Shown here in pieces: positions 53,212-58,472 of a stretch of 64,000 bases of DNA; the first letter of the stretch is position 1; the number at the start of each line of letters is the position of its first letter. The DNA is from an uncultured Acidimicrobiales bacterium. Lineage in GTDB: Bacteria; Actinomycetota; Acidimicrobiia; Acidimicrobiales; SHLQ01. The translations under genes were made by a program, and so were the position numbers. The DNA lies in contig CALJDK010000068.1 in assembly GCA_938023735.1 (NCBI GenBank), forward strand, positions 1-64,000, read 5' to 3'. A model generated the notes under the pieces. That model searched no databases. It had not been told where the DNA came from and worked only from the letters and a program-made list of their open reading frames with translations.

Positions 53212-54375
53212 ATGACGTCCGCTTTGCCTGACCCATCCCCTTTTGCCACCAAGCATGCGTCGGGAATGTGGGAAGACAAGTTCGGTGCGATCGGGCCATT
53301 CAAGCCTGGCGAGGGACCTCGGCAGGATCCTCTTGGCGACTTCCCGACGGGCCCGGCCATTGGCGAACGACTTCCTGACATCGTCACCCCGACCCACACG
53401 GGTGACACGCTCGATGTGCACGATGACCGCGGCAAGCGAGCCGCGGTCATCGTGTTCTACCGGTCGGCAGTGTGGTGACCGCCGTGCCGGTCGCAGCTGG
53501 TCGAGCTGCAGGATCACGCCCAGAAATTCGCTGACGCGAACGTCGCCGTCTACGCCCTGAGCTATGACGAGCCCGACGCGCTCGCTGATTACGCCACCCA
53601 ACACCGCGTGTCGTTCCCCCTCCTGTCCGACCCCGACAGTGAAATCATCAAGCGCTTTGGCATCCTCAACACGCTCACCGACCCCGATGATCATCCTTGG
53701 TATGGCATCCCGTTTCCGGGAACCTACGTCATCGATGCCGACGGAATCATCATCGAGAAGTTCTTCGAGTCGAGCTTCATGCTTCGACCATCAGCCGACC
53801 AGTTGCTGCGGGCAGCCCTCGGCAAAAAGGTCGATCTCGCTGCGCCGACGCAACCGAGACACGTCGAAGAAGTCACCTACACGGTCAACTTCGACGGCAC
53901 CGTTCTCAATGCTGGTGTGGTGCGAGATCTCGTTGTTGAGCTACGCGTTCCCGAGGGTTACCACCTGTACGGCAATCCCGTGCCGGAGGGCATGGTGGCC
54001 ACTTCAGTCGAGGTCGATGAACAGGTCGGACTCGTCGTTGAGGCCGCCCAGCTCCCAGCGACGGCTCCGTACACACTGGCCGGCACCGGCGAGACGCTTC
54101 AGGTGTTCGACGGCGATGTCGAGATACGTGTGCCGATTGCTCACATGTCTCGGCCGCTCACCACCAACGACGAAGGCGCTGCGACCCTCACAATCACCGG
54201 GACGGTGCGATGGCAGTCGTGCGATGCCGACGCCTGTCAGCTTCCACAGCGCGAAACCTTTACGCTTCATGTTCCTGCGGCCCGGCATAACACACCCGGC
54301 CACTGGACAAGCGAGGGTTCGAACTTCAAGGAGCACTTCTCCAAGATGCTCGCCCGTCAAACCGGCCAGACCTAA
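53212..54375 (+). CDS. Selenocysteine-containing peroxiredoxin-like protein fused to a DsbD-N-like domain
   Basis: 387 residues if TGA 53476-53478 (codon 89) is read as Sec. Residues about 45-200 form a thioredoxin-fold redoxin domain. The active-site segment is VIVFYRSAVW-U-P-P-C (Sec89, Cys92), matching the FYRSADW-C-P-x-C motif of Cys homologues. Without readthrough the gene splits into a 93-codon and a 255-codon frame, each without a complete domain. The part after the TGA continues the fold directly (RSQLVELQDHA, FPLLSDPDSEI, FGILNTL, GTYVIDADG). From about 215 to 375 is a DsbD-N-like domain (GYHLYGNPVPEG ... RWQSCDADACQLP, Cys337 and Cys342). A SECIS-like hairpin follows the TGA. Role: thiol/seleno-dependent peroxide reduction or disulfide relay; inferred. 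Confidence 0.85.
53493..53509 (+). promoter_or_regulatory. Bacterial SECIS element
   Basis: GCAGCT (53493-53498), loop GGTCG (53499-53503), AGCTGC (53504-53509): a perfect 6-bp stem lying inside the coding sequence. The loop starts 20 nt after the end of the TGA, in the 16-37 nt range reported for bacterial SECIS. The loop begins with GG, and its GGUC matches the SelB-recognised loop of E. coli fdhF as I recall it. Flanking CC (53487-53488) and GG (53511-53512) could extend the stem past a small bulge. Confidence 0.75.
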
Positions 54376-54396: not shown

Positions 54397-56868
54397 TTAG
54401 CTGCGCATTCGTTGGCCGGTTGGGTCGAAGGGTGGCTCGGTGAGACGGGTTGCCGCTTTGCGTTGCCCGACGATCTCTATTTCGAAGCCCTCGGTTTTGT
54501 CAGCGATCTCGATGGGCACGTAACCCATGGCCATCGACAACTGGCTGTGATGCGCGTATGCACCCGACGTGACCCAGCCAATGACCTTGCCGTCGTGCCA
54601 GATTGGTTCATCGCCGATCGGGTCGGCGGCATCATCGCCAACGCCCGGGTCGACAGAAAACAACACCAGCTTGCGAGCAGGGCCCGCATCGGCAACGGCC
54701 GCTGCGGCGTCGCGGCCAATGAACTCTTTGTCGAGCTTCACCATCCAACCCATGCCCGCCTCGAACGGGTCATAGATAGGGCGATACTCGGTGGCCCAGC
54801 CACCCCAGCCCTTGTCGAAGCGCATCGAGTCGAGGGCCCGGATGCCATACAAGCCAAGCCCATAGTTCTCCCCTGCTTCGACAAGGGTGTCGAAGAGTTG
54901 GGTTTGGTAGCTGGCAGCGCACCACATCTCGTAGCCCAGGTCGCCCGAAAAACTCAGCCGACCCAAAACGACCGGCACTGCGCCGACGTAGGTTTCGCAC
55001 ACGTCGCGGAACGGCATCGCCTGGTTGGAAACATCGAAATCGCACAGCTCGGCCAACAACGCCCGAGAGTTTGGGCCCGCGATCGAGAGACCGGTGAGCT
55101 CAATGCCACAGGTCCGGAAGTGAACCGACCCGTCGCTTGGGAGGTGATCGATAAACCAGCGTTCGTGGTAGCGCTCGGCGGTTCCGGATCCGAACACCAT
55201 GAACCGGTCGCCGGCCAGAGCGGCCACGGTGAAGTCGCCGATGAGCTTGCCGTGCTCGTTGAGCATGGGCGAAAGCGCCATACGACCGACCTTGGGGATG
55301 TTGTTGGCTAGAATGCCATCGAGCCACGCACGAGCATTCGGTCCGCTGAACTCGTACTTGGCGTACCCCGTTGTCTCGACCATGCCCACCGCTGATCGCA
55401 CGGTAGCTACCTCGTCGGCAACGACGGCGAAAGCGTTCGACCGGCGGAACGTTACGTCTTCCTCCGGCGCCTCACCCTCGCGCTGAAACCACAGCGGATA
55501 CTCGAGTCCGTACGCCGCACCAAACACAGCGTTGCGTTCGGCCAACCGGTCATAGATCGGGCTCTTCAGATGACCGCGAGCCGCCGGTAGCTCTTCATTG
55601 GGGAACGAGATTCGGAACCGACGACCGTAGTTTTCGACCACTTTGGCCGCCGTGTACCTGGGGGTCGCCCAGTCGCCGAACCGGGCGTTGTCCATGCCCC
55701 AAACGTCGAAACCCGGGTCGCCTTCGGTCATCCAATTGGCCATCGACAAACCAACGCCGCCGCCCTGGCTCAGCCCAGCCATCACACCGCAGGCCAACCA
55801 GTGGCCGGGTTGGCCCTTCACCGGGCCAATCAACGGGTTGCCATCGGGCGCAAAGGTGAACGGCCCGTTAATGGTCTGCTTCAAACCAACCTCGTTGAAG
55901 ATCGGGAAGTGCTGAAACCCCAGATCGAGGTTGGCCGCGATTCGATCGAGATCGGGCGGCAGAAGTTGCGCGCCAAAGTCCCACGGAGTGGTGTGCGGAG
56001 ACCACGGCACGCCGTTCGGCTCATAGGTGCCAAGAAGCAACCCCTCGCCCTCTTCGCGCATGTAGATCTCGCCACCAAGATCCATCACGTGGAACCCGGG
56101 CAGGCTCGAGGTCTTGCGCCACTCGGCAAGCTCGGGCACGGCCTCGGTGAGGATGTACATATGCTCCATCGCCAAGATCGGAATCTCGAGGCCGGTCATA
56201 CGGCCGACCTCGCGAGCCCACAAGCCACCGGCGTTCACAAAGTGCTCGCAGTGAATGCTGCCAAGGTCTTCGTCGGTTTGGGTGTTGTGCAGATGGATGT
56301 CCCATCCGTCCCGGCTACCTGAGCCACCTCTTGGTGTAATCGCATGAGCCCACGTGTGTTTGTAGATCTCGGCACCGGCCATCTGCGCAGCCTTGGCATA
56401 CGCGTGAGTCACACCGCTCGGGTCGACGTGGCCCTCATGCGCATCGAACAGGGCGCCCTTGAAGAATTTGGGTTCGAGGAACGGCACCATCTCGTGGGCC
56501 TCTTCGGCCGAGATCATGTGCGATTCCATACCCAGGTACTGGGCGCGGGCATTGGCCATCTTGAGGAAGTCGAGCCGCTCGTCAGAGTCGGCCAACACGA
56601 GGCCACCGGTGAGGTGAATGCCGCAGTCCTGGCCGGAGATCTTTTCAATCTCGTGGTACAGCTCGACCGTGTACTTCTGCAGCGCGGCGACGTTGGGGTC
56701 GCCGTTGAGCGTGTGCATGCCACCGGCCGAATGCCAGGTCGACCCGTGCGTGAGCTCGCGTCGCTCGACCATGACCACGTCGGTCCAGCCAGCCTTGGTG
56801 AGGTGATACATCACCGATGCGCCAACCACGCCTCCGCCGATGACGACTACCTGTGCGTGGTCTTTCAT
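54397..56868 (-). CDS. Dimethylglycine dehydrogenase-like FAD/GcvT fusion oxidoreductase
   Basis: 823 residues. VVVIGGGVVGASVMYHL (about 7-23) binds FAD. THGSTWHSAGGMHTL at about 40-54 holds the His that carries covalent FAD in DMGDH and related enzymes. DAHEGHVDPSGVTHAYA is another family block. From about 480 the GcvT-like folate-binding half begins (VGMVETTGYAKYEFSGPNA, GDLGYEMWCAASYQTQL, GIRALDSMRFDKGWGG). Members remove a methyl group from dimethylglycine or sarcosine and transfer it to tetrahydrofolate. The gene follows the MttB homologue through a coupling 22-codon ORF, so the two serve one pathway. Confidence 0.92.
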   Translation of the reverse strand: MKDHAQVVVIGGGVVGASVMYHLTKAGWTDVVMVERRELTHGSTWHSAGGMHTLNGDPNVAALQKYTVELYHEIEKISGQDCGIHLTGGLVLADSDERLDFLKMANARAQYLGMESHMISAEEAHEMVPFLEPKFFKGALFDAHEGHVDPSGVTHAYAKAAQMAGAEIYKHTWAHAITPRGGSGSRDGWDIHLHNTQTDEDLGSIHCEHFVNAGGLWAREVGRMTGLEIPILAMEHMYILTEAVPELAEWRKTSSLPGFHVMDLGGEIYMREEGEGLLLGTYEPNGVPWSPHTTPWDFGAQLLPPDLDRIAANLDLGFQHFPIFNEVGLKQTINGPFTFAPDGNPLIGPVKGQPGHWLACGVMAGLSQGGGVGLSMANWMTEGDPGFDVWGMDNARFGDWATPRYTAAKVVENYGRRFRISFPNEELPAARGHLKSPIYDRLAERNAVFGAAYGLEYPLWFQREGEAPEEDVTFRRSNAFAVVADEVATVRSAVGMVETTGYAKYEFSGPNARAWLDGILANNIPKVGRMALSPMLNEHGKLIGDFTVAALAGDRFMVFGSGTAERYHERWFIDHLPSDGSVHFRTCGIELTGLSIAGPNSRALLAELCDFDVSNQAMPFRDVCETYVGAVPVVLGRLSFSGDLGYEMWCAASYQTQLFDTLVEAGENYGLGLYGIRALDSMRFDKGWGGWATEYRPIYDPFEAGMGWMVKLDKEFIGRDAAAAVADAGPARKLVLFSVDPGVGDDAADPIGDEPIWHDGKVIGWVTSGAYAHHSQLSMAMGYVPIEIADKTEGFEIEIVGQRKAATRLTEPPFDPTGQRMRS

Positions 56869-56933
56869 GATCGTTCCTCAAAGTAGGGCCGCTCGACCGT
56901 CACGGTTTCGTAGTCAAGACCATTCGTTTCCAT
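56865..56933 (-). CDS. 22-codon ORF coupling mttB-like and dimethylglycine dehydrogenase-like genes
   Basis: ATG at 56933 with AAGGGG 7 nt upstream; the product starts METNGLDYET and ends PYFEERS. Its TGA overlaps the ATG of the next gene (ATGA). It fills most of the 74-bp gap between two large operon genes. The acidic peptide has no recognised family. It may be a real microprotein or a translation coupler; a chance ORF is also possible. Confidence 0.4.
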   Translation of the reverse strand: METNGLDYETVTVERPYFEERS

Positions 56934-56942
56934 CGATACCCC

Positions 56943-58472
56943 TTAGTAGTCGGTAGCCACGCCACCCTCGGCGATTCGTCGATCGACGAAGTCTCGCAGT
57001 TCGGCCTCGATCGCGTCGTCGATTGGTGGCTTCTCGTAGTTGGCCAGAATCTCTCTGGCAGTGGCATTAGCCCGGCTCTTGGCATCGGGCGAACCCGCTT
57101 CTTCCCAGGTTTCCCAGTTCCGCCAGTCCGACACCATGGGCGAGTAGAACTCGTTGGTGTAACGAGCCTGGGTGTGCGCTTCGCCAAAGAAATGTCCCGC
57201 TGGGCCGACCTTGGCGATGGCATCGACGGCGAGCGCATCGTCGCTCAGGTCGAGCGGCGCCAGGAAGGTCGACACCATGTTCAGAAGGTCGGCGTCGATG
57301 ACCATCTTTTCGAGGCTTGCGTGCAGTCCACCCTCCATCCATCCGGCGCCGTGCATGATGAAGTTGGCCCCGCCCATGATGGCTCCCCACAGCGCCCATA
57401 CACTCTCGTACCCGGCTTGCGCGTCGATTGCGTTCGAGGCGCTCACGTTCGATGACCGGTACGGCACCTGATACTTACGGGTGAGTTGGCCGCCAATGAG
57501 GCATGCCTTTGCGTACTCGGGCGTTCCGAATGCCGGCGAACCCGATCGCATATCGACATTGCTCGTGAACCCGCCGTACATCACCGGCGCCCCCTTTCGG
57601 ACCACCTGGGTAAACACCAAACCAGCGAGGGCTTCGGCGTTCTGCTGCACCACCGCTCCGCCGATGGTGATGGGCGCCATCGCCCCCGCAAGCGTGAACG
57701 GCGTAATGACGATCACCTGGTTGCGGGCCGACATCTGGATGATGCCTTCCAACATCACGGTGTCGTAGCGAAGCGGCGAACTGGCGTTGATGATGCTCAC
57801 CAAACTTGGCTCGCGCTCGAGGGTTTCGTCGTCGATCCCCCGAGCGATGCGCGCCATCTCGATGCCGTCGAGGTTGCGCTCGCGACTAAGGCTGTAGATG
57901 TGAAAGGCCCGGTCGGTGAGGGTGTGCGCGTCGTAAGCAGCTTCGAGATGACGGATCGATGCGTGAAGGTCGATTGGCTCAACCGGATATCCGGCAAACG
58001 TGTGCACCGAGTTGAGCATCTGACCAAGCCGTAAGAAGTCTTGGAACCCCGCCCGATCGCCGGTGCGTCGTTGCCCATCGAGACCCACGTAGTTGGGGGC
58101 GCTCGCCACCGACGAGTAGCAAATCCAGTTATCGCCGATGCGCAGATCGCGGTTGGGAAGCCGGCCGTGAAGTGTGAACTCCGAAGGGATGTGCGCCATG
58201 TACTCGGCGATCATCTCAGGGTCGAACCGCACCCGCTCGCCGTCTACTCTGGCGCCCGCCCCAGCCAGCATTCGGAGCGCGTCGGGATGGAGAAAGTCGA
58301 TGCCGGTTTCGCTCAGTACCCGCAGTGAAGCCTGGTGTATCGCCTCGAGTTCGTCGTCGCTCACGATGGCCGTTGGCGCCATGAGAAGGCGCGGCTGCGC
58401 AAACGGCGGTTGCTCGGCAACGGGGTTGCGAGTCCGCTTTGTGCGGTCGGCCTTGCGGCGGCGCGCGCTCAT
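56943..58472 (-). CDS. Trimethylamine methyltransferase (MttB) family protein, non-pyrrolysine type
   Basis: 509 residues. ELEAIHQASLRVLSETGIDFLHPDALRML is the N-terminal signature. VIVITPFTLAGAMAPITIGGAVVQQNAEALAGLVFTQVV and PVMYGGFTSNVDMRSGSPAFGTPEYA are core barrel blocks. The region that holds pyrrolysine in methanogen MttB (near GGANFIMHGAGWMEGGLHAS) is read through with ordinary codons and no amber codon. Non-Pyl members include glycine-betaine methyltransferase MtgB, which methylates a corrinoid protein. No corrinoid protein or activator is in the window. It is followed by the DMGDH-like gene, fitting betaine or trimethylamine-type demethylation. Basic Arg/Lys segment at the N-terminus. 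Confidence 0.88.
   Translation of the reverse strand: MSARRRKADRTKRTRNPVAEQPPFAQPRLLMAPTAIVSDDELEAIHQASLRVLSETGIDFLHPDALRMLAGAGARVDGERVRFDPEMIAEYMAHIPSEFTLHGRLPNRDLRIGDNWICYSSVASAPNYVGLDGQRRTGDRAGFQDFLRLGQMLNSVHTFAGYPVEPIDLHASIRHLEAAYDAHTLTDRAFHIYSLSRERNLDGIEMARIARGIDDETLEREPSLVSIINASSPLRYDTVMLEGIIQMSARNQVIVITPFTLAGAMAPITIGGAVVQQNAEALAGLVFTQVVRKGAPVMYGGFTSNVDMRSGSPAFGTPEYAKACLIGGQLTRKYQVPYRSSNVSASNAIDAQAGYESVWALWGAIMGGANFIMHGAGWMEGGLHASLEKMVIDADLLNMVSTFLAPLDLSDDALAVDAIAKVGPAGHFFGEAHTQARYTNEFYSPMVSDWRNWETWEEAGSPDAKSRANATAREILANYEKPPIDDAIEAELRDFVDRRIAEGGVATDY

Follow-up and report, generated by a model that had tools for sequence, protein, structure and literature searches.

A redoxin-like gene in an uncultured Acidimicrobiales bacterium is interrupted by an in-frame TGA, which raises the question of whether the gene is broken or is read through the TGA as a selenoprotein. 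It was examined in a window (the whole stretch of DNA that was analysed) of 64,000 nucleotides, corresponding to positions 1-64,000 of contig CALJDK010000068.1 in assembly GCA_938023735.1. The main features of the locus are as follows.

53212-54375, plus strand: predicted selenoprotein gene, encoding a Sec-containing redoxin with a DsbD N-terminal-like domain (387 residues and a TAA)
53359-53754, plus strand: AhpC/TSA redoxin domain on both sides of the TGA, residues 50-181 (Pfam PF00578, E = 1e-28)
53476-53478, plus strand: in-frame TGA, codon 89, putatively read as Sec (TGA at this codon in the window and in 78 of 78 other covering loci)
53485-53487, plus strand: Cys92, the partner of Sec in U-P-P-C
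53857-54297, plus strand: DsbD_N-like domain, modelled as all-beta (Pfam match at 53923-54267; PF11412, E = 1e-10)
54220-54237, plus strand: Cys337-x4-Cys342 pair (codons checked)

Reading frame and conservation of the UGA codon

Translation bore out the frame proposed in the first-pass annotation of this DNA: an ATG at 53212 opens it, the TGA at 53476-53478 is its sole interruption, and 298 sense codons follow before a TAA at 54373-54375. A mechanical ORF caller breaks the gene into 53197/53212-53478 and 53608-54375, the split into truncated ORFs that had been anticipated. Because the window has a GC content of 62% and chance ORFs are numerous, openness of the frame is weak evidence in itself, and the evidence comes from homology. 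The single redoxin domain claimed to extend across the TGA was recovered by Pfam only in the read-through protein; the first ORF piece alone has no Pfam match, and the second matches only the end of AhpC-TSA and DsbD_N. AlphaFold2 modelled the full read-through protein with a mean pLDDT of 90.5 and a pTM of 0.89. The local motif is FYRSAVW-U-P-P-C, so that W-U-P-P-C stands as described earlier and the preceding residues, given as FYRSADW, are corrected.

Relatives were searched for in GTDB with an alignment of the post-UGA part only, and since this query lacks the UGA codon, it introduces no bias towards Sec or Cys at codon 89. TGA was present in 77 of the 77 position-covering loci read, out of 79 loci; addition of L028 and the window brings the number of sequences with TGA to 79. 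One locus (L132) begins after the TGA position, and another (L121) was read in a first pass and excluded from the alignment set. Homologues thus cross residue 89 and keep the TGA, in answer to the earlier concern that they might end before it. Sec89, Cys92, Cys337 and Cys342 are invariant across the 57 rows of an alignment whose members are as little as ~33% identical to the window protein. The UxxC site varies among UPPC, UPWC, UPYC and UPFC.

The first-pass annotation had compared the TGA with a Cys in homologues. This holds for distant, redoxin-only relatives, whereas the close homologues have TGA and no Cys. No full-length Cys form was found either in the GTDB scan, which demands one of two short peptide patterns and would let a Cys form differing there escape, or among 397 Actinomycetota genomes, where the two full-length matches both have TGA and the Cys forms are single redoxin domains (for example the distant relatives L144 and L147). 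The viral contigs searched contained no relative, and plasmids contained redoxin-domain relatives only, at identities <60%.

The family loci belong to Acidimicrobiia, Gammaproteobacteria and Chloroflexota, apart from a few in bins assigned to Acidobacteriota, Myxococcota and Euryarchaeota, where mis-binning of contigs may be to blame in some cases. In the tree, the locus from a Euryarchaeota-labelled bin (L076) falls within the bacterial members of the family and is typical of them; mis-binning of its contig is a likelier explanation than an archaeal origin of the gene. Three loci (L028, L119 and L122) carry an extra in-frame TGA or a frame shift after the Sec codon, and may be genes in decay or the product of faulty assembly.

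A second UGA-bearing redoxin family, with the motif FYRGDW-U-PYCNGQLVSY, was also encountered (L145, L146, L149, L150, L151, L153 and L154). Its hosts are Actinomycetota genomes of one family, in which SelA matches are present, and a CAGCTGGTCAGC-like stretch directly follows its UGA.

Predicted decoding signal and selenocysteine machinery

The sequence following the UGA contains a candidate bacterial SECIS element (bSECIS) and, further downstream, a second conserved stretch.

53493-53509, plus strand: predicted bacterial SECIS hairpin GCAGCU-GGUCG-AGCUGC, 6 bp stem and 5 nt loop (covariation, RNAalifold)
53499-53503, plus strand: SECIS apical loop GGUCG, with G in the first two positions as in the published bSECIS rule (PMC13188914)
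53560-53568, plus strand: AGCTATGAC (Ser-Tyr-Asp), codons +28 to +30, with unexplained synonymous conservation of Ser and Asp

According to published rules, a bSECIS has a loop of 3-9 nt, a stem of 4-16 bp and G in the first two loop positions, with the loop lying 16-37 nt after the UGA and an MFE of at most -7.5 kcal/mol (PMC13188914). The window hairpin, which starts 14 nt after the UGA and has its loop starting 20 nt after it, with an MFE of -8.9 kcal/mol, fits these rules in loop size, stem, G, distance and MFE. In the relatives, the MFE of the minimal hairpin lies between -10.1 and -5.4 kcal/mol, which in some of them is weaker than the published limit. Rfam gave nothing of use over the locus. 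The single-sequence folding z-score of the region after the UGA was not significant, and the case for a SECIS therefore rests on covariation and synonymous constraint.

Among 75 distinct sequences, 99.3% of the stem cells are paired, compared with 90.5% in shuffles and at most 39.8% with a slid partner, and the covariation score was matched by 0 of 500 shuffles. RNAalifold recovered the identical stem unaided. The synonymous change of Gln CAG to CAA occurs only together with TTG at the paired Leu (8/8; the P values ignore relatedness), in rows from Actinomycetota, Gammaproteobacteria and Chloroflexota, and the outermost stem pair alternates between G-C and C-G. As a fraction of the value expected from the family's codon use, synonymous entropy is 0 to 0.41 at the hairpin codons +6 to +10, compared with near 0.9 at most other conserved codons. 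Because this hairpin follows the UGA at once, SelB and Sec-tRNA(UCA) would be the factors that decode codon 89, and SelB/SECIS-directed decoding is strongly supported by the sequence patterns.

Ser +28 (AGC/AGT) and Asp +30 (GAC in 65/70) show synonymous conservation similar to that of the SECIS codons, with the same codons in L063-L141, while Tyr +29 between them is synonymously free. RNAalifold found no consensus pairing partner for codons +28 to +30. Pairing of +28/+30 with the SECIS loop was considered and rejected, as a loop change of GUC to GUG is uncompensated and RNAalifold gave no such helix.

A selenoprotein gene implies SelA, SelB, SelD and tRNA-Sec in the host, as had been pointed out in the first-pass annotation, and all four were located in the same genome, an Acidimicrobiia-like draft MAG (4.68 Mb, 211 contigs, 91% complete). 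They are listed by contig and position.

C38:3378-3469: tRNA-Sec, anticodon UCA (71 bits; gathering score 47)
C10:10976-12115: SelA (over cut-off)
C10:12163-13224: SelB, directly after SelA (match to the N-terminal part of the model only, in an open frame of 600 codons)
C101:2783-3706: SelD, with its own in-frame TGA in the context GAG-U-GCK (L059)

The SelD of this genome is thus itself a predicted selenoprotein, as it is in the 3 other genomes of the genus. Among 59 genomes, made up of the window's own genome and 58 related ones, SelA exceeded the cut-off in 43, providing further evidence for Sec decoding in uncultured Acidimicrobiia. All 6 genomes with a long match to the protein, including the window's own, have SelA over the cut-off and keep the TGA. 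Eight further genomes encode a UGA-bearing redoxin, and all 8 also have a SelA match, which in one of them (G379) is partial and below the cut-off.

Three readings of the TGA that do without Sec were weighed against these results. A sequencing or assembly error, or a pseudogene, in which the real codon would be TGC or TGT, is suggested by the single base that separates TGA from a Cys codon and by the draft state of the MAG, but 78 further loci, drawn from numerous separate assemblies and spanning several phyla, share the TGA at this codon, and the synonymous sites right after it are constrained. As the TGA is shared by orthologues, this explanation is refuted for the family and we hold it to be exceedingly improbable, in keeping with the doubt expressed earlier that a sequencing error or chance stop was involved. 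If the UGA were a true stop, with a second polypeptide starting from GTG at 53608, the locus would look as ORF callers would annotate it; however, a single domain would be cut in two, conservation runs straight across the stop (W88, the U column, P90, C92 and QLV), and the second ORF would start well past Cys92, all of which makes two separate polypeptides very improbable. Reassigned UGA codes occur in some bacteria, and insertion of an ordinary amino acid such as Trp or Gly in this lineage could likewise keep the frame open. Against this, UGA terminates 9 of the 31 long ORFs in the window and many genes of the family itself, which renders genome-wide reassignment unlikely, and a tRNA-Sec with anticodon UCA and the full set of sel genes are present; we give such reassignment or suppression almost no weight. 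From the combined sequence evidence, we estimate a probability of about 95% that UGA codon 89 is decoded as selenocysteine and that the apparently broken gene is a bacterial selenoprotein.

Domain architecture and relation to known families

The N-terminal domain is of the Bcp/AhpE redoxin type by sequence and predicted fold: PF00578 was matched in all 57 full-length relatives, and the closest solved structures to the predicted fold are Bcp/AhpE peroxiredoxins. In alignments to 2cx3 and AhpE, Cys92 occupies the column of the peroxidatic Cys and Sec89 that of the preceding Ser/Thr, which places Sec89 at the position of the attacking Cys of thioredoxin. The earlier description of the gene as peroxiredoxin-like is upheld for the redoxin domain, with the refinement that the peroxidatic position belongs to Cys92 and not to Sec89. 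The protein resembles Bcp/PrxQ and AhpE in the fold of this domain and in having a Cys at the peroxidatic position, and differs in carrying Sec at their Thr/Ser, a UxxC site and a second domain.

This second, C-terminal domain did not figure in the first-pass annotation. PF11412 was matched in all 57 sequences scanned, with a score of 41.9 bits for the window protein (gathering score 25). Modelled alone, the domain reached a pLDDT of 94, and the best PDB matches in Foldseek were E. coli nDsbD (1jpe, 1l6p and 3pfu) and the complex of nDsbD with cDsbD (1vrs); a sequence-profile comparison of the domain gave no match to the PDB. Like nDsbD (DsbD-alpha, PF11412), whose fold it is predicted to adopt, it carries a Cys pair towards its C-terminal end, but it is fused behind a soluble redoxin, and its two Cys residues are separated by four residues, compared with five in E. 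coli DsbD. The protein is not a full DsbD, which comprises nDsbD, a transmembrane part and a C-terminal thioredoxin domain, as the order here is redoxin followed by the nDsbD-like domain. The matched domains are PF11412 and redoxin-type families only, with no transmembrane part among them, and no signal peptide was obvious by eye at the N terminus.

Selenoproteins with a UxxC redoxin have been described before. A 2005 study of the Sargasso Sea reported a Prx-like UxxC selenoprotein (PMC1088965), the Global Ocean Sampling study of 2008 listed 225 sequences of Prx-like 1 (pfam00578, UxxC) (PMC2398784), and a 2026 review lists the class as 'Prx-like thiol:disulfide oxidoreductase', its DsbD entry being a rhodanese fusion (PMC13188914). 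The window protein shares with this class the PF00578 domain, UxxC in place of TxxU and an occurrence in environmental bacteria (PMC1088965, PMC2398784, PMC13188914), but adds the fused DsbD_N-like domain with its invariant Cys pair. Some of the Prx-like 1 reads could belong to the window family. Unknown_3, likewise a UxxC selenoprotein of Prx-like type, also has an additional domain with Cys residues; three Cys including a CxxC are described for it, whereas the window domain has two, as C-x4-C (PMC2398784). The SelL-related redox protein NF040769 is also of redoxin type and similar around the active site, but the window protein scores 46.8 bits against a cut-off of 120; none of the NCBIfam models reaches its cut-off on this protein. 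No description of a redoxin-DsbD_N fusion was found in the literature searched, the coverage of which leaves out most subscription journals; a full-text query for such a fusion brought up the 2026 review alone. As the UxxC class appears in the 2005, 2008 and 2026 papers and the fusion does not, the kind of protein is known, while its architecture seems to be undescribed within this literature.

Since standard annotation splits these genes into two truncated ORFs, a conserved and apparently widespread selenoenzyme family is easily missed. Such a compact natural fusion is suited to asking what a thiol relay gains from selenium, and also raises the question of why Cys forms with this architecture were absent among the relatives found.

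Possible chemistry and gene neighbourhood

The protein is best read as a UxxC selenoprotein of the Prx-like class, in which Sec89 of U-P-P-C would act as a thioredoxin-type nucleophile, rather than at the peroxidatic position, and Cys92 would resolve. In DsbD, the thioredoxin-like cDsbD hands electrons to nDsbD. By analogy with this transfer, we infer as the most likely mechanism an intramolecular thiol/selenol-disulfide relay between U89/C92 and C337/C342 of the nDsbD-like domain. Such a relay, which would probably operate in the cytoplasm, would end in the reduction of an oxidised protein or of a peroxide. The chances that electrons pass between the Sec-redoxin and its fused domain appear to us evenly balanced. 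We put forward only tentatively the broader proposal of an undescribed, Sec-only architecture in Acidimicrobiia, Gammaproteobacteria, Chloroflexota and others, for which no Cys counterparts are known and in which a soluble UxxC redoxin and its own fused nDsbD-like domain would form a self-contained cytoplasmic selenol/disulfide relay.

The protein might instead contain Sec and be a true peroxidase, with Cys92 as the peroxidatic and Sec89 as the resolving residue, and with the DsbD-like domain serving only to supply electrons. The position of C92 on the peroxidatic Cys of Bcp/AhpE and the peroxiredoxin folds of the nearest solved structures speak for such an enzyme. Sec, however, normally serves as the attacking residue, and UxxC is the order seen in thioredoxin-like oxidoreductases. 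The motif of known Sec-peroxiredoxins is TxxU (PMC1088965), and the window protein does not belong to this group, given the positions of Sec89 and Cys92. We regard a peroxidase of this kind as rather unlikely, and prefer Sec89 as the thioredoxin-type nucleophile.

Inspection of 14 loci revealed no apparent conserved neighbour gene. Downstream of the gene in the window, on the minus strand at 54397-58472, lie two genes, one for a flavoprotein (DAO/GCV_T) of the dimethylglycine/sarcosine dehydrogenase type and one for a methyltransferase of the MTTB family, the latter open without an in-frame TAG. The presence of these two genes suggests the use of methylated amines.
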